From contig JAPPHZ010000036.1 in the NCBI GenBank assembly GCA_028820935.1, positions 62,001-126,000 of the forward strand: a DNA stretch of 64,000 bases, given 5' to 3'. Below are positions 22,927-30,040 of the stretch, one piece after another. The DNA is from a bacterium (GTDB lineage: Bacteria > Actinomycetota > Acidimicrobiia > Spongiisociales > Spongiisociaceae). Within the stretch, counting starts at the first letter, position 1. Each line of letters starts with the position of its first letter. The position numbers and the translations under genes are program-made. The notes beneath the pieces were generated by a model. The model had not been told where the DNA came from, did not search any database, and saw only the letters and a program-made list of their open reading frames with translations.

Positions 22927-24249
22927 GATGCTAGAGGCGAGCTGGACCAGGACCTGCGACACACCCTCGGTTATCTCGTCCAATTCGGTGGTGGCGACGA
23001 GTGGGGGAGAGAGCATGATCTTGGCGCCGCCCCGGTCGTCAACCCGGAGGTGCATGCCCGCTTCGAGGGCCAACGGGGGTAGAACCTCGTAGACGGCCCG
23101 CTTTGCTTCCTCGTCGGAGTATTCCCGGCCTTCCTTCCGGCTATGCCCTAGAGCAAGGGAGTACAGGTAGCCGGTTCCCCGGACGTCCATCACCACATCG
23201 TGCGCTCCGGCGAGATCATGAAGGCTCGCCTCGAATAGCGGCGCGTGGCGGGCGACGTTGTCGATCACCTTCTCGTCCCGCATGGCGGTGAGGTTGGCGA
23301 TGGCGGCTGCCATGACCACCGGATGACCACCCCAGGTCGCGCCGTGCAGGAAGCTTCCGGTCGGCGAGTCCAGGACTTTCTCGACCAGCGGCCGGCGCAC
23401 CAGAACGCCGCCGATCGGCGCGTAGCCCGAGGTGGCACCCTTGGCGAACGTGATCATGTCGGGTTCCGCGTCCACGACCTCCGATCCGAACCAGGCGCCG
23501 AGTCGCCCGAACCCACAGATCACCTCGTCAGCGACCAGCAGTACGTCATACCGGTCGCAGATGCGACGCAGTTCCCGCCAGTAACCCACCGGAGGAACGA
23601 GGGACCCGCCCCCGTTCTGGACCGGCTCGGCGATCACCATGCCCACCTGCTCCGGTCCCCGGCGCAGGATCTCCTCCTCGACCACCCGTGCGGCTTCCAC
23701 CCCATCCGAGAAGCCGAGGGTGTTGGGTACATGGCTGAAACCCGGCAGGAGAGGTAGGAAAGGCTCTCTGATGGGTTTCAGACCGGTAGCCGAGAGTGCG
23801 CCCATGCTGGTGCCGTGATAGGCGTCGTTCCGGGCGATGACGCCGGTCTTGGTGGGCCGGCCTTCGGCCTGGTGGTACTGGCGGGCGAACTTGAAGGCTG
23901 ATTCGTTGGCCTCGGAGCCCGAACTGACGAAGAACACGGCGTCCAGATCGCCGGGCGCCAGATCGGTGATCAACGAGGCGGCCTCGAGAGTGACGGGAGT
24001 GGTGGCGGACCAGGACGGGAAGAAGGCGAGCTGCTCGGCCTGCTCGCTCATGGCCTTCGCGATGTCGGTCCTCCCGTGGCCGATCTGGACCACGAACAGC
24101 CCGGCCAGCGTGTCGAGGTACTTGTTGCCCGCGTGGTCCCAGAGATAACAGCCCTCACCGCGGGCGAACACGGGGACGGCTCCGGAGCGCCAGTACTTGG
24201 CGCCGGTGAAGGACGGCAGGAGGTGGCTCAGATCAGGTGAGTTCGTCAT
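22924..24249 (-). CDS. Class III (omega) aminotransferase
   Basis: A 441-residue PLP enzyme of the class III family. GSEANESAFKFARQYH, GVIARNDAYHGTSMGALSATG, LLVADEVICGFGRLG (the Asp that contacts the PLP pyridine) and ITFAKGATSGYAPIGGV (PLP lysine in FAKG) are diagnostic. It is the type that uses pyruvate as amino acceptor with taurine, beta-alanine or similar amines. The neighbouring alanine dehydrogenase would regenerate pyruvate, and a MocR regulator is divergent, both as in taurine-pyruvate aminotransferase loci. The amine substrate cannot be fixed from sequence alone. Confidence 0.92.
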   Translation of the reverse strand: MTNSPDLSHLLPSFTGAKYWRSGAVPVFARGEGCYLWDHAGNKYLDTLAGLFVVQIGHGRTDIAKAMSEQAEQLAFFPSWSATTPVTLEAASLITDLAPGDLDAVFFVSSGSEANESAFKFARQYHQAEGRPTKTGVIARNDAYHGTSMGALSATGLKPIREPFLPLLPGFSHVPNTLGFSDGVEAARVVEEEILRRGPEQVGMVIAEPVQNGGGSLVPPVGYWRELRRICDRYDVLLVADEVICGFGRLGAWFGSEVVDAEPDMITFAKGATSGYAPIGGVLVRRPLVEKVLDSPTGSFLHGATWGGHPVVMAAAIANLTAMRDEKVIDNVARHAPLFEASLHDLAGAHDVVMDVRGTGYLYSLALGHSRKEGREYSDEEAKRAVYEVLPPLALEAGMHLRVDDRGGAKIMLSPPLVATTELDEITEGVSQVLVQLASSI

Positions 24250-24315
24250 ACCGGAAGTCTACCTGCCCGCCGGGCCTGGGTAGAGTGATAATGTCGATCG
24301 TCGGGGCGGTGAACG

Positions 24316-25791
24316 ATGACGTCTGATCAGCACTACGCGACGGTCGCCCGCCTGTCCGACTCCCTGAGCGACGAGACGAACAAGCCACGTTTTCGCCGTC
24401 TCAAGGACGGACTGACCCGGGCGATCGAGAGGGGGGAGTTGCACGGGGGTGAGATGCTCCCCTCGTCCCGGGTGCTGGCCGACCACCTGGACGTCTCCCG
24501 CAACACTGTCAACCGGGCCTACCGGGAACTGGCGGTGGAGGGGTTCATCGAGCCGATCGAACGGGTCGGCTACGTGGTGAATGAGGGTCTCGGTGATGGC
24601 GATGCGGGTGTGCCGCACCGGGATGGATCGTCCACCCCGCCCAGGGTCCGCTGGGACGAGAGGTTGGACGCCCTGGCCGACGGCCATGACGAACGGACCC
24701 GGCCGGCCGGTTGGCGTTCCTACCCCTATCCGTTCGTGGTCGGGCCGGGTCCGGAGGCCTTCCCGATCGGTTCGTGGACCAGGGCTATGCGCATGGCGCT
24801 GCGCGAGGAGCACAGGGGCACCAGCCTCCACAACCTGGACGACCAGGATGACCCGCTCCTCGTCGAGCAGATCCGGCGCATCATCCTTCCTGCCAGGGGT
24901 ATCCAGGCCGCGCCTGACCAGATCCTGGTGACGCTGGGAACCCAGCACGGACTCCACCTGGTCGCTGAGGCGTTACTCGGAGCCGGGTCCACGGTGGGCG
25001 TCGAGGATCCCGGCTATCCCGACGCCCGGAGGATATTCCTCAAGCAGGAGGCGAAGCTGGTGCCGTTACCGGTCGACGCCCACGGCGCGACCGCTCCTGA
25101 AGGCCTGTCGGGGCTGGACTTCGTGTTCATCACCCCGGGCCGCCAGTTTCCCACCAACGTGACGATGACTATCGGCCGCCGGCGAAAGCTTCTCGCTCAG
25201 GCCGCTCGCGACGGCGCGCTGATCGTGGAGGACGACTACGACTCGGAGTACTGCTACTCCCGACGGCCCCCGCCGGCCCTCAAAGCCCTCGACACGACAG
25301 GGCGCGTCGTCTACGTCGGGAGCTTCTCCAAATTCCTGGCCCCCGGGTTGAGACTCGGATTCGTGGTTGCCGATCCCGTCCTGATCGACTATCTGCGCCG
25401 CTTGCGACATCACATGCTCAGGCATCCTCCGGGGATCATCCAGCGCACCACCGCCCTGATGATGGAGGTGGGTGATTACGGAAGGGTGATCAGAAGGCAC
25501 CGCCGGGTACTCAGGTCCAAGTGGCAGGCCATCACCGAGGCGGTGGACGACCTGTTTCCATGGCCGGTACCGGGCACCGACGGGGGAATGAGCCTGTGGG
25601 TGGCCGGCCCGGAGGATCTGGACGCAGCCTTCCTGGCGGAGCGGGCACTGGATGACGGGGTGGTGATCGAACCGGGCCGATCCTGCTTCCTTGGCCCGGT
25701 CCGTCCCGCTCGCTACTTCCAACTCGGGTTCGCCGCCATCGATCGGGAGGCGATTCGCCCGGGAATAGAGCGTCTGGCCCGGTTCCTCTGA
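24316..25791 (+). CDS. MocR-family regulator (GntR winged helix fused to aminotransferase fold)
   Basis: A 491-residue protein. Residues 25-95 are a GntR winged helix (GLTRAIERGELHGGEMLPSS, VSRNTVNRAYRELAVEGFIE). The rest is a class I aminotransferase-like domain: ILVTLGTQHGLHLVAEALL, VEDPGYPDARRIFL, FITPGRQFPTNVTM, VEDDYDSEYCY and YVGSFSKFLAPGLRLGF with the PLP lysine in SFSKF. Relatives (TauR, GabR, PdxR) activate catabolic aminotransferase genes in response to a PLP adduct. It diverges from the aminotransferase gene with a 66 bp intergenic region holding GATAAT at 24287-24292, so it probably controls that operon. Confidence 0.93.
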   Translation: MTSDQHYATVARLSDSLSDETNKPRFRRLKDGLTRAIERGELHGGEMLPSSRVLADHLDVSRNTVNRAYRELAVEGFIEPIERVGYVVNEGLGDGDAGVPHRDGSSTPPRVRWDERLDALADGHDERTRPAGWRSYPYPFVVGPGPEAFPIGSWTRAMRMALREEHRGTSLHNLDDQDDPLLVEQIRRIILPARGIQAAPDQILVTLGTQHGLHLVAEALLGAGSTVGVEDPGYPDARRIFLKQEAKLVPLPVDAHGATAPEGLSGLDFVFITPGRQFPTNVTMTIGRRRKLLAQAARDGALIVEDDYDSEYCYSRRPPPALKALDTTGRVVYVGSFSKFLAPGLRLGFVVADPVLIDYLRRLRHHMLRHPPGIIQRTTALMMEVGDYGRVIRRHRRVLRSKWQAITEAVDDLFPWPVPGTDGGMSLWVAGPEDLDAAFLAERALDDGVVIEPGRSCFLGPVRPARYFQLGFAAIDREAIRPGIERLARFL

Positions 25792-25946
25792 GCAGATTGG
25801 CGGATCCGCCGTCCCGCCTCTGACCTGACCTCCAACTCGATGGGGTGTGGCTGTCGCACCCACAGGTATAGCCAGGTAGCGTTTCTTAGGATAAACCATC
25901 GAATGGTAGGGGCGACAACCGAAGTCATCGCCCACCACCACAACTT

Positions 25947-26040
25947 GGCGGGTATTGCCTGTTGGTACAGGACCGGGCCTCACATGCTCGGAGTCGTGGA
26001 GCGTAACCTCCTGGCTGCGGTTCGACTCCGCTGCCCGCCG
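25947..26040 (+). tRNA. Candidate type II tRNA (allo-tRNA/tRNA-Sec-like, 8/4 fold), anticodon CAC
   Basis: A 94-base cloverleaf can be drawn. The acceptor is GGCGGGTA (25947-25954) with TGCCCGCC (26032-26039), 8 bp including one G-T. The D arm is CCTGT/ACAGG around tetraloop TGGT (25958-25971). The anticodon arm is CCGGGC/GCTCGG (25973-25978, 25986-25991) around CTCACAT, anticodon CAC. The variable arm pairs GTC/GGC and GGAG/CTCC around CGTAAC (25993-26015). The T arm is GCGG/CCGC around TTCGACT (26017-26031). The discriminator is G26040; CCA is not encoded (CCG follows). The long variable arm, tetraloop D arm and G73 are serine/selenocysteine-type features, whereas CAC reads valine codon GUG. 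The 8+4 acceptor/T arrangement differs from the usual 7+5. A degenerate pseudo-tRNA is the alternative. Confidence 0.6.
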
Positions 26041-26139
26041 CCGTTTCCCGCAGCCTTGCGGACCAGTGTAGCACATACTCTTCCATTGACAGCATCCGCC
26101 AACCGGTATTTATCTTAGTTTTCTTGCACATGTCGTCTG

Positions 26140-26228
26140 GTCGTCGTGAACCGTTCTGCCCGCTTCACGAGGCAGGGGCGCCGATGGCCACCGGAGCACG
26201 CAGGCTGTTTCGCAGGCGGACCATTAGA
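26140..26228 (+). repeat. Decayed 3' part of family II repeat
   Basis: GGGGCGCCGATGGCCACCG, GAGCACGCAGGCTGTTTCGC and GGCGGACCATTAG line up in order with the last 60 bases of the copies at 2308 and 10323 (GGGGCGCCGATGACCGCCA, TTTTTCGCCGACAGACCAC). The 5' two thirds is unrecognisable. Apart from this and the tRNA candidate, the 25792-26305 gap shows a small GGGCGA/TCGCCC hairpin at 25910-25933 and nothing else I can name. Confidence 0.5.
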
Positions 26229-26305
26229 ATCGGGAGTGCGGCCGGCTGCGGTATGGTGGCAGCCCCGTAATGGGTTACCTGTTCTTTCCAGGTCGAGAGG
26301 TGCAG

Positions 26306-26551
26306 ATGTCGGATCAGGTTCGAGGAGACGACGGATCCCATGATGCCGGTAGCGATCTGGCCTTCGGTATGGCCATCATGAAGGGCTCCATCGTCGGTCT
26401 ACCCCTGATGGTCGCCTTCATGACCGTTGCCGTCTGGCTGATGACCGATCAGAGCTGGCAGACCTCGATCGCTACCGCCTTGCTTCCCGGTGTCCTGTTC
26501 GGCGTTTTCGGCGGCGGTTTTCTCGGCATGATCCGGGCGATGGATCACTGA
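26306..26551 (+). CDS. Small two-helix membrane protein
   Basis: An 81-residue protein from ATG 26306 (GAGAGGTGCAG upstream). The N-terminus is acidic and soluble, followed by two helices, IVGLPLMVAFMTVAVWLM and a glycine-rich ALLPGVLFGVFGGGFLGMI, and ends IRAMDH. Small actinobacterial membrane proteins of this shape are common and uncharacterised. It is convergent with the histidine kinase gene, 10 bp away. Confidence 0.7.
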   Translation: MSDQVRGDDGSHDAGSDLAFGMAIMKGSIVGLPLMVAFMTVAVWLMTDQSWQTSIATALLPGVLFGVFGGGFLGMIRAMDH

Positions 26552-26561
26552 ACGAGGGCTC

Positions 26562-28787
26562 TCACTCGTCCTCGTAGTCGTCGTCCTCGTCGTCATCGTC
26601 ATCCTCGTCGATCAAGCGGTCCGCGTACGCCTGATCGGCTTCGGACGCTCCCTCCGGCCGCCTGAGCGGTAGTTCGACCGTCATCTGGGCGAACTCTCCC
26701 TCCTCCGAATCCACGGAGATGGACCCACCATGGGTCCGGACGATGTCGCTCGAGAGCGCCAGGCCCAGGCCGGTGCCCTTGTCGGTCGGCTTGGTGGTGA
26801 AGAACGGATTGAAGATCTTGTCGATCACGTCGGGAGGGATGCCGTCCCCGTTGTCCCGAATCACGACCTGAACCCGGTCATCGATCCGCTTGGTCTTCAG
26901 CCAGACCGTGGGCGTGTAGGGCGTGCCATCGCGAGGTGTCTCCTGGATCGACACCCGCTTGAAGTCGACGGCTTGGCAGGAGTTGCCGACCATGTTGAGG
27001 AAGACCCTGCCCAAGTCCTGCGGGATGGCCTCGATGTCGCCTACGCCGGGATCGAAGTCGCGCTCGATGGTCAGCTGGAAGTCGGGATCCACAGCCCGGG
27101 CGCTGTGGTAGGCCAGCTGGGCGTGCTCGTTGAAGACGGTGTTGAGATCGACGGTCTGCCATTCGCCACCACCCCGGCCCATCATCAGCATGTCCTGCAC
27201 GATCCGGTTGGCTCGCTCGCTGTGCCGGCGGATCCGTTCGAGGTTGTCGGTCAGATCCTCGACGATCTCGGCTATCTCGTCCTCGTCCAGGTCGTCCTCC
27301 TCGAGGATCTCCTCGAGTTCCTCCAGCAGTTCCTCGGAAGCCTCGGAGAAGTTCTTCACGAAGTTCAGCGGGTTGCGGATCTCGTGGGCCACCCCGGCGG
27401 TGACCTCACCGAGCGCCGCCAGCTTCTCCTGCATCACGATCTGGTCCTGGGCCCGCTCCAGCTCGGAGAGGACCTCCTCCAACTGGCTGTTCTTCTCGAC
27501 CAGCTCGGCGGCCATCTTCTCGACCAGGTTCAGGCGCTGGACCTCGAGGGCGTGGCGGCGGAAGACCTCCAGGGCGGCGGCCATGTCGGCCACCTCGTCC
27601 CGGCCCTTGATGTTGACCTCGGCTTCGAGGTCCCCGTCGGCCATCTGCCGCATGCGCGCCGACAGTATGTGGATCCGGCGGAGCAGCACCCGGCCGACGA
27701 AGCCGTAGCTGATGGCGAAGGCCGCGAGCACGCCGAGGATGCTGATCGTCACCAGCAGGGCGCGGCCGGTGTTGATGGCGTTGTCCGATGCCTGATTGGC
27801 CGCATCGGCGGCCTGGTTGGCGGAGGTGACCAGGCCATCGACCTCCGTGGTCAACTCTGCGGCCAACTCGGTCGTGTGGAGCAACAGGGCGTCCTGGCTC
27901 TCCTCCAGCCTGAGCTTCTCGATCAGGAGGTCGAAGCCGTCCCCCTGAGTCGTGGCTGTACGGAGCAGTTGATCGAAGAGCGGGGTGAGTGAGGTGTGGA
28001 GCTCGGTTCCCTCTATGGCGCCCAGGCTGATCGCCAGGCGCCCGGAGGTCGATTCGAAGCTCTCCTGGAGGGGTTCGATGTAGGCCGCGTCCGAGACGCT
28101 CAGGCCGCTGGACAGGAGCTGGGTCGCCAGCGTTGCTTCCGACTTGAGCGACGCTAGGTGGCGGTAGCGGTTGAACTCGGTCTCCGACAGGTAGAGGGTC
28201 CGGCTGACCGGCGGTTCGCCCAGATCCCGAAACCCGGTCAGCTGGTAGAACAGCTGATCGTCGATGGCGGGGACGATTATGTCGTCGAGTCGGGAGCGCA
28301 GGTCGATGATCAGCAACCTCAACTCCTCCGCTCGCTGGACGAGGGTGTGATGCTGGGAAAGCTGTCCCTGGATCCGGTCGATGTTGAACAGCAACTGGAA
28401 GAAGACCGCCTGCGCGTTGGGGATGTAGGTCTGGATATGATCTTCGGTTCTCGCCAGCCTTTGCAGGAGGAGGATCTGATCCTCGAACCCCTGCTGGGCT
28501 TGGCGGATCTCCTCGGATATGGCGCCGACCTCGGTCGGTTGGGCGGCTACCAGCCTGGGAGCTGCCGCGGCGAGGGTCCGGCTGTACTCGGCCATCCGGA
28601 ACGCCGCCTCCATCTCGGGCAAGCTCTCGCTCTCCACCCTGGCCTGGGCGGCGCCGACCCGGTTGAACGAGACCCAACCGACGAAGCTGGCCGCAATGGT
28701 CAGCGCGACGACGGCTCCGATCCCGATGTACATCTGGGTGGATATGAGGGTGCGGAGCGCCCAGAGGCGGCCGAGCCAGTTCACCAT
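26562..28787 (-). CDS. Membrane histidine kinase with HAMP domain and acidic tail
   Basis: A 741-residue sensor. A helix near 15-38 and another near 342-368 bracket a ~300-residue extracytoplasmic helical domain. HAMP follows (~368-420), then a coiled coil and a HisKA-like region with GVAHEIRNPLNF (H468). The HATPase domain carries N602 (MVGNSCQAV), DNGDGI at 645-650 and GTGLGLAL from 671. Two highly acidic segments stand out: 487-511 inside the dimerisation helices, and the C-terminal DEDDDDDEDDDYEDE. It overlaps the end of the binding-protein gene by 7 bp, so the two are coupled and probably act as receptor and kinase. Confidence 0.93.
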   Translation of the reverse strand: MVNWLGRLWALRTLISTQMYIGIGAVVALTIAASFVGWVSFNRVGAAQARVESESLPEMEAAFRMAEYSRTLAAAAPRLVAAQPTEVGAISEEIRQAQQGFEDQILLLQRLARTEDHIQTYIPNAQAVFFQLLFNIDRIQGQLSQHHTLVQRAEELRLLIIDLRSRLDDIIVPAIDDQLFYQLTGFRDLGEPPVSRTLYLSETEFNRYRHLASLKSEATLATQLLSSGLSVSDAAYIEPLQESFESTSGRLAISLGAIEGTELHTSLTPLFDQLLRTATTQGDGFDLLIEKLRLEESQDALLLHTTELAAELTTEVDGLVTSANQAADAANQASDNAINTGRALLVTISILGVLAAFAISYGFVGRVLLRRIHILSARMRQMADGDLEAEVNIKGRDEVADMAAALEVFRRHALEVQRLNLVEKMAAELVEKNSQLEEVLSELERAQDQIVMQEKLAALGEVTAGVAHEIRNPLNFVKNFSEASEELLEELEEILEEDDLDEDEIAEIVEDLTDNLERIRRHSERANRIVQDMLMMGRGGGEWQTVDLNTVFNEHAQLAYHSARAVDPDFQLTIERDFDPGVGDIEAIPQDLGRVFLNMVGNSCQAVDFKRVSIQETPRDGTPYTPTVWLKTKRIDDRVQVVIRDNGDGIPPDVIDKIFNPFFTTKPTDKGTGLGLALSSDIVRTHGGSISVDSEEGEFAQMTVELPLRRPEGASEADQAYADRLIDEDDDDDEDDDYEDE

Positions 28788-30040
28788 ATCCTCTTGATCT
28801 TTTGGGCCGGTTCGTACTCGCCTTCGCTGTTGATGAAGGTGAGGAACACCCGGTCCGAGCCCTGGTTGTCACCCGCGCCGAAGTTGAGGGGGAACCCGTC
28901 GATGTCCATGGCGCCGCCGTTCAGGATGCTGTCCAGGAAACAGGCGCGGGTCGGTTCGAGTCCGCATGCCTCCAGGCCGAAGATGGCCAGCCGTCCTGAC
29001 AGGTAGCCCTCCAGGGAAACGAAGCTGGGCGAGGCATCCGGGGCGTAGGCCGCCAGGGCGTCTATGTAGGAGGCCACGACCGGTATGGACCTATCCGTGG
29101 GGAACGGCACCACCTGGGTGACGAATACGCCCCGGCCGTCCGGGCCGAGCTCCCTCGCCAGGGCGTTGCTTCCCACGAAGGAGATGGTGATGAAGATGGG
29201 ATCGAAGCCGATGTGTCTGGACCAGGCGATCAGGGCCGCCACGGGCTGGTAGGCGCCGACCACGATGACCGCGTCGGGGTTGCCCAGGGTGAGGTCGATG
29301 AGGCCGGTCTTGATGGCCGTCGTGTTGCGAGGGTAGATCCCCACCGATACGGGCTGCATGTCGCGGCGCTCGAGTGCTGCCTGGGCGCCCTGCAATCCGG
29401 TCCGGCCGAACGAGTCGTCCTGGTACATGATTGCTATGCGCTCGATCTCCAGGTCCTGGGTGAGACGGGCCACCATCTCCTCGGTCTCCTGGGCGTAGGA
29501 CGCCCTGAGGTTGACGATATTGGTCCAACTCTCGGACCGGAGGAACGCGGCGCCGGTGAAGGGCGCCACGAAGGGGACTTCCGCCTCGGCGGCGACCGGG
29601 GTGGCGGAACGGGACGTTGGCGTTCCCACCTCGCCTATCAGGGCGAATACCTGCTCGTCCTCGATGAGCTGGAGGGTGTTGGCGATGGCCAGTTCCGGTT
29701 CGTACGTGTCGTCGAGGCTGATCAGTTCGAGGCGGCGACCACCCACCCCCCCGTTCGAGTTCACCTCGTGGAAGGCGGCATTGATGCCCAGGCTCATTTC
29801 CAGACCCAGCTCCTGGGCCGGGCCGCTGAGGGCCGCCGACTGGCCGAACAGGACCCGCTGGTCGTCCACACCCGGGGTGGCCTGGCCCGAGGCGGCCGTG
29901 GCGGCGGAGGAGGTGGTGGTGGGATCGGTGTCTTGGGGGCCTTCGCCTGCCGGCGGCGACCCGCAAGCGGCCAGTGCTAGCACGAGAATGCCGGAACCGA
30001 TGGCCTGAAGAGTCCGTGGCCGGCGCTTCCTGACCCCCAT
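28781..30040 (-). CDS. Liv-type periplasmic binding lipoprotein (ABC substrate-binding/receptor family)
   Basis: About 419 residues from ATG 30040; an in-frame ATG at 30094 would overlap the previous gene by 40 bp. The signal LVLALAACGSP is a lipobox. After a Thr/Ala linker, VLFGQSAALSGPAQELGLEM and GINAAFHEVNSNGGVGGRRL are hallmarks of type I periplasmic binding proteins of the branched-chain amino acid (LivK) family. No permease or ATPase genes are nearby. The gene lies between an RsbW-like gene and a histidine kinase, so it is more likely a ligand-sensing partner of the kinase than an uptake component. The ligand is unknown. Confidence 0.9.
   Translation of the reverse strand: MGVRKRRPRTLQAIGSGILVLALAACGSPPAGEGPQDTDPTTTSSAATAASGQATPGVDDQRVLFGQSAALSGPAQELGLEMSLGINAAFHEVNSNGGVGGRRLELISLDDTYEPELAIANTLQLIEDEQVFALIGEVGTPTSRSATPVAAEAEVPFVAPFTGAAFLRSESWTNIVNLRASYAQETEEMVARLTQDLEIERIAIMYQDDSFGRTGLQGAQAALERRDMQPVSVGIYPRNTTAIKTGLIDLTLGNPDAVIVVGAYQPVAALIAWSRHIGFDPIFITISFVGSNALARELGPDGRGVFVTQVVPFPTDRSIPVVASYIDALAAYAPDASPSFVSLEGYLSGRLAIFGLEACGLEPTRACFLDSILNGGAMDIDGFPLNFGAGDNQGSDRVFLTFINSEGEYEPAQKIKRIW

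Follow-up and report, generated by a model that had tools for sequence, protein, structure and literature searches.

The gene described here lies in a window of 64 kb, the whole stretch of DNA that was analysed, which belongs to a 3.3 Mb genome assembled in 51 contigs and 97% complete. At positions 25947-26040, the window encodes a cloverleaf in which all arms are present, preceded by a hairpin and contained in a compact cassette behind a gene for a MocR-type regulator. The coordinates of the features, together with those of the related copies, are summarized in Table 1.

Table 1. Features of the window copy and of its relatives. Positions are those of the window unless a contig is named; neighbour names other than the MocR-type regulator were assigned by eye.
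Feature	Position	Strand	Properties
Allo-tRNA-like gene, 8/4	25947..26040	+	anticodon CAC, G73, no encoded CCA (CCG next); from fold, ARAGORN and alignment
Acceptor, 8 bp	25947-25954 paired with 26032-26039	+
D arm	25958..25971	+	CCUGU-UGGU-ACAGG; 5 bp, tetraloop UGGU; stem the same in every counted copy, including diverged locus D
Anticodon arm		+	6 bp, loop CUCACAU; from fold
Anticodon CAC	25981..25983	+	GAG or CAG at sister loci; U33 and A35 invariant
Variable arm	25992..26016	+	9 bp, split in two by a bulged U at 25997
T arm	26017..26031	+	4 bp, loop UUCGACU; C-G to U-A compensatory changes
Acceptor 3´ strand	26032..26039	+	half of the 8-bp helix; C-G to U-A compensatory changes
G73	26040	+	discriminator
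Cassette	25841..26103	+	~265 bp; aligns as one unit to the L020 copy in an unrelated gene context, 84% identity
5´ hairpin (HP2)	25910..25933	+	GGGCGA...TCGCCC; ends 13 nt before the tRNA
Upstream block GGGGTGTGGCTGTCGCACCCAC	25842..25863	+	aligned in loci A, B and C
L020 cassette, A-type	L020:3202-3466	-	slightly decayed: one extra anticodon-stem base, one broken T-stem pair
Sister copy	C19:36801-36893		anticodon GAG, intact
Sister copy	C45:176876-176968		anticodon GAG, intact
Locus A (window)			after MocR-type regulator; CAC
Locus B			after FAD oxidoreductase, QueG-like gene also a neighbour; GAG or CAG
Locus C			beside PQQ-type dehydrogenase, MFS transporter also a neighbour; GAG
Locus D (G001 only)	L076:1501-1630	-	after mazG, HNH protein also a neighbour; CAG, strongly diverged

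The window copy and its cassette

The minimum free energy structure of the window copy is exactly the cloverleaf of Table 1 (-46.8 kcal/mol, z -2.83; 3 of 200 shuffles equally good), and the pairing originally claimed for every arm is borne out. ARAGORN calls a tRNA-Val(CAC) at 25947-26042, the only tRNA in the 64 kb, against a background of 0.05 calls per 64 kb (two calls in total from 40 first-order Markov shuffles of the stretch). In the window, every Rfam family stays below its gathering score. At relaxed thresholds, the tRNA-Sec family (RF01852) matches the window copy over its full length with 36 bits and an E value of 1.6e-5, the gathering score being 47, and a genome search with RF00005 (E <= 1e-3) returned 45 ordinary tRNAs, a list from which the window copy is absent. 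CCA must be added to the transcript, because CCG follows G73 in the gene; several ordinary tRNAs in the same genome likewise lack a fully encoded CCA. No sigma70-like promoter or terminator beside the tRNA passed the scan. A small ORF downstream of it (26270-26551; 93 aa, hydrophobic by eye) has no Pfam match.

When positions 24001-29000 were compared with contig L020 by blastn, a single match of 267 columns with sharp ends was obtained and no similarity beyond it. The L020 contig is labelled Gammaproteobacteria and carries unrelated genes (an AAA_16 ATPase and a Calx-beta protein); the cassette may have been transferred horizontally to Gammaproteobacteria or the contig may be misbinned. A G+C-rich hairpin stands before each copy of the tRNA and ends some 10-15 nt ahead of the acceptor. 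This hairpin, HP2, is present in loci A, B, C and D and in the truncated copies, and two of its pairs have changed on both sides with pairing retained, a result matched in 6 of 500 shuffles; at locus D it forms a perfect 11-bp stem, ACAGGCGACGG/CCGTCGCCTGT. Further upstream of the hairpin, the block GGGGTGTGGCTGTCGCACCCA is conserved in loci A-C. The upstream block GGGGTGTGGCTGTCGCACCCAC is possibly an operator, a promoter element or a small hairpin; conservation as a hairpin is not supported, since it pairs in A and C and not in B.

A family probably under selection as RNA

The genome contains three intact copies (CAC, GAG and GAG) and a truncated one, the 5´ half of a tRNA located 320 bp downstream of the C19 copy. 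Sequence matches among 59 genomes are confined to the same genus, where 7 of 10 members, the window's own genome included, carry the family and G002, G005 and G009 gave no match. The covariance model R1 and the D-arm pattern, run over 395 class-level relatives, also restrict the family to this genus, the covariance search having used strict filters that distant relatives outside the genus may escape. GTDB contigs with the motif come from Acidimicrobiia MAGs, one bacterium (RHO1) and the contig labelled Gammaproteobacteria. We take the MAG series to be sponge metagenomes, judging by the isolate names, and the host genus is apparently one of sponge-associated Acidimicrobiia. Three IMG/VR hits to the D-arm pattern yielded no tRNA with model R1 or ARAGORN and were treated as chance; two of them (L125 and L126), when read, lie in near-identical stretches that look protein-coding.

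Every locus has different neighbours, and a link to one neighbouring gene family was rejected. Locus D was found by the covariance model only, at 60.8 bits; its tRNA, seen in one species, has a D loop of 3 nt and a mismatch in the acceptor (G2-G71). Locus B (L002:1700-1900 and L014:1400-1600) also has a second copy in tandem, ~320 bp further downstream, in which the last part of the upstream gene, the hairpin of the leader and the first half (5´) of the tRNA are duplicated before the sequences diverge. Occupancy is patchy. At the site after the MocR gene, the unit is present in G000, G001 and G004 and absent in five other genomes, and loci B, C and D vary similarly among genus members. In G003 the locus A tRNA (L015) has lost its 3´ half, and in G004 the locus B copy (L013:1495-1592) has a broken acceptor and a damaged T stem, while both genomes have other copies that are intact. 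G006 retains only the right end of the cassette at locus A; with these last ~20 nt retained, the site is more likely a deletion remnant than a clean empty site. All seven genomes that bear the family keep at least one intact copy each, that of G008 being nearly intact.

The copies share the 8/4 acceptor/T split, a short D loop, a long variable arm, G73 and the upstream hairpin. The A8-U pair is formed in 12 of 12 distinct copies, whereas the closing U-U of the alternative 7/5 arrangement never pairs. The D stem has 5 bp throughout. The anticodon stem has 6 bp in the window copy and 5 bp with an additional C-A mismatch in the GAG and CAG copies of loci B and C, and the variable arm ranges from 9 to 10 bp with compensatory changes.

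In the whole-family alignment, which was fitted to the covariance model and takes in broken and truncated copies, 95.2% of pair cells are standard, nine pairs are changed on both sides and 13 cells are double changes; 0 of 500 shuffles reach any of these values, and slid structures give 0-1. The compensatory changes are located in the acceptor, anticodon, variable and T arms. An unfitted alignment of nine copies retains double changes in the acceptor (C3-G70 to U-A) and the T stem (C-G to U-A), with a count of double-change cells reached in 0 of 500 shuffles. The D-arm stem does not vary among the counted copies, including those with changes in their remaining stems. The family model, built partly from the window copy, scores that copy at 105.5 bits. 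The original prediction would have fallen with a covariance score below background or with paired positions that are not conserved in relatives; the score is not below background, and the pairs are conserved with compensatory base changes across the family, a comparison that we regard as decisive for the reality of the cloverleaf.

Between orthologues at fixed sites the tRNA changes less than its leader: four pairs show 6 substitutions in 375 positions of tRNA and 37 in 444 of leader (Fisher p 1.1e-5), a value that is only indicative, since the pairs (A G000/G004, B G000/G003, B G007/G006 and C G000/G003), although mostly non-overlapping, were picked after the data had been seen. All six tRNA substitutions fall in the loop of the variable arm. 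Other pairings are less contrasted, as in A G000/G001 (tRNA 8/94, leader 10/112), where the tRNA changes preserve pairing or are confined to loops, the bulge and the weak innermost pair of the anticodon stem. We conclude that the window copy is most probably under selection as an RNA.

Relation to known tRNAs and possible serine identity

With its 8/4 split, long variable arm, long D stem and tetraloop, G73, non-serine anticodon, covariation and relatives, the reading as an allo-tRNA put forward from the sequence is well supported, and we regard positions 25947-26040 as an allo-tRNA-type gene with high confidence. The 8/4 allo-tRNAs (Mukai et al., 2017, via PMC7609411) likewise divide a 12-bp acceptor/T domain 8/4 and have a long variable arm, a lengthened anticodon stem, a non-serine anticodon and a serine-type discriminator. 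The listed sources of allo-tRNAs are Clostridia, Proteobacteria and Acidobacteria (PMC7609411); in contrast, the present family comes from Acidimicrobiia (Actinomycetota), and a full-text literature search for allo-tRNA with Actinobacteria returned only a review of pyrrolysine synthetases. It is further set apart from the 8/4 allo-tRNAs, as described rather than as published sequences, by the dispersed cassette with a 5´ hairpin, the invariant D arm and the bulged variable stem of the CAC and some CAG copies. The allo-tRNA(UAU)-like genes of Edaphobacter and soil metagenomes resemble it in the 8/4 layout, in pseudogenised copies and in a suspected link to mobile elements (PMC7609411), whereas the present cloverleaf is regular (no fifth stem), carries CAC, GAG or CAG and has a fold under selection.

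The window copy is neither a tRNA-Sec nor a selC* tRNA-Cys, and an ordinary tRNA-Val does not fit it either. Bacterial tRNA-Sec (RF01852) shares the long D stem with tetraloop, the long variable arm and the 8-bp acceptor; the window copy differs in its 4-bp T stem, its sense anticodon CAC instead of UCA and its score below gathering. The selC* tRNA-Cys (PMC7609411) shares the 8/4 layout, but the window copy has G73 instead of U73 and lacks a GCA or UCA anticodon and the A51a bulge in the T stem. Compared with an ordinary tRNA-Val(CAC) (7/5, short variable loop, A73), the window copy has the 8/4 split, a 25-nt variable arm and G73, and a normal tRNA-Val(CAC) is encoded elsewhere in the genome. 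The structural placement of the family with the 8/4 allo-tRNAs is thus well supported, and by analogy with them it may be serylated and used in translation.

The window copy has G73, G1-C72, G2-C71 and a long variable arm, as do the genome's own tRNA-Ser genes, whereas the tRNA-Leu genes of the genome have A73. Model R1 scores the own tRNA-Ser genes at 24.6-31.0 bits and tRNA-Sec at 28.4 bits, above the two reported tRNA-Leu (15.8 and 19.3 bits). A single serS exceeds the cut-off in the genome, and a dedicated second SerRS was therefore rejected. None of the anticodons of the family (CAC, GAG, CAG) belongs to serine. In E. coli, 8/4 and 9/3 allo-tRNAs with non-serine anticodons inserted serine at the leucine codons CUC and UUA (PMC7609411), and those of Silvibacterium bohemicum insert serine at two leucine codons, one of which, CUC, would be read by the present GAG copies (PMC7609411). 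By analogy, charging of the family with serine is somewhat favoured.

The variable stem divides the copies. All four CAC copies have a bulged base at the same place, the locus B CAG copies have a bulge on the opposite strand, and the stem is unbroken in the GAG copies of locus B (G000/G003) and locus C. In 9/3 allo-tRNAs, a bulged U inserted in the variable stem prevented serylation in E. coli and made them poor SerRS substrates (Mukai; PMC7590224). Because of this, serine charging is more likely for the GAG copies than for the window copy and its orthologues, and at loci B and C the GAG copies would most likely carry serine, given their serine-like identity features and the known allo-tRNAs that insert serine at leucine codons. 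The window copy, with its bulged stem, may therefore be weakly charged or serve another end; efficient charging with serine appears unlikely for it, and the charging by SerRS with insertion of serine at GUG that was originally suggested is the weaker part of the first interpretation for this copy.

Possible function in translation and the alternatives

The ordinary tRNA set of the genome is complete and includes Val-CAC, Leu-GAG, Leu-CAG, four Ser tRNAs and tRNA-Sec(UCA). With these and the single SerRS present, the allo-tRNAs are extra. In seven genes of the window, CUG, CUC and GUG rank among the commonest leucine and valine codons, at 50, 34.6 and 34.9 per thousand (about 12% of codons together), which demands low or conditional expression or charging; efficient misreading of these codons would be harmful, and strong constitutive missense activity is unlikely.

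The reading that we prefer, with a probability of roughly 0.45, is that the window copy is a working 8/4 allo-tRNA gene, one of several dispersed copies, which acts as a minor serine acceptor with low or conditional misreading. The cassette would be transcribed, the hairpin leader removed by RNase P and CCA added to the 3´ end, and the product, through its long variable arm and G73, would accept serine to a minor extent although its anticodon is not one for serine. SerRS would act best on the GAG copies, whose variable stem is unbroken, and these would place serine at some CUC/CUU (Leu) codons, while the bulged CAC copy of the window would be a weak or conditional substrate that causes, at most, low-level misreading of Val (GUG) as Ser. 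Any use in translation is argued from known allo-tRNAs and has a little less than an even chance, and low-level or conditional misreading of Leu and Val codons as Ser is the leading account, put forward tentatively. Against it stand the promoter and terminator scan, which nothing beside the tRNA passed, the copies lost or broken in some species, the redundant ordinary Val-CAC, Leu-GAG and Leu-CAG tRNAs, and the bulge, which predicts poor serylation. A broader possibility, which we consider rather doubtful, is that this genus of sponge symbionts keeps a mobile cassette for non-canonical 8/4 tRNAs that carry Leu and Val anticodons. The variable arm would sort them into two functional grades, one unbroken (GAG) and one bulged (CAC and part of the CAG copies), and they would serve regulated mistranslation or else a dedicated role outside translation in which the invariant D arm and the 5´ hairpin take part.

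The main rival, less probable than the preferred reading, places the same allo-tRNA-like RNA outside ordinary decoding, where, charged or uncharged, it would act as a regulator, a decoy or a donor of amino acids, perhaps in concert with the 5´ hairpin and the invariant D arm. The D-arm sequence that stays fixed where other stems have changed, the compensatory changes that maintain the hairpin, and the bulge of the CAC and CAG(B) copies, which predicts rejection by SerRS (PMC7590224), are all consistent with such a role. Translational use would also be costly with anticodons that target the commonest Leu and Val codons, and some groups of allo-tRNAs were inactive in E. coli translation (PMC7609411). 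However, the family retains U33, a purine at 37 and anticodons limited to CAC, GAG and CAG, as in a decoding tRNA, and no partner gene is common to the loci.

The cassette could instead be a mobile or selfish element, a short piece of non-coding DNA that has spread among members of the genus and retains the tRNA fold mainly to propagate itself, without advantage for its host. The patchy occupancy of four loci that lie among unrelated genes, an A-type unit in a contig of entirely different genes, the truncated tandem copy at locus B and the tie of one allo-tRNA group to transposon-related sequence drawn by Mukai et al. (PMC7609411) would agree with this. We consider it improbable: the fold is kept at fixed orthologous sites after divergence (6/375 versus 37/444), which points to selection at the level of the host, inspection by eye showed no terminal repeats or target-site duplications, and neither phages and plasmids, searched with blastn, nor viral contigs gave a match.

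A functionless pseudogene, in which a paralogue of an ordinary tRNA (Ser, Sec or Val) is decaying, would explain the plainly broken copies (L015, L013 and the second copies at locus B) and is very improbable, since it is contradicted by the covariation and the orthologue substitution counts; the genome has three intact copies, compensatory changes separate the loci, and the canonical genes for tRNA-Sec (76.6 bits), tRNA-Ser and tRNA-Val are distinct from it and lack close sequence similarity. A further candidate, a selenocysteine tRNA that SelB would recognize but that bears a sense anticodon, could account for the long D stem with tetraloop and the full-length tRNA-Sec match at 36 bits, but it was rejected because the genome has its own canonical tRNA-Sec(UCA), the window gene stays under the gathering score and the copies read three different sets of sense codons.

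For the study of what allo-tRNAs do in nature, the family supplies material that is seldom available: a defined genus, near-complete assembled genomes and several orthologous loci whose gains and losses can be traced. The sister species without copies, together with natural variable-arm variants that match the engineered on/off switch for SerRS, make charging, expression and effects on the proteome directly testable, and the family offers new tRNA scaffolds for genetic code expansion.
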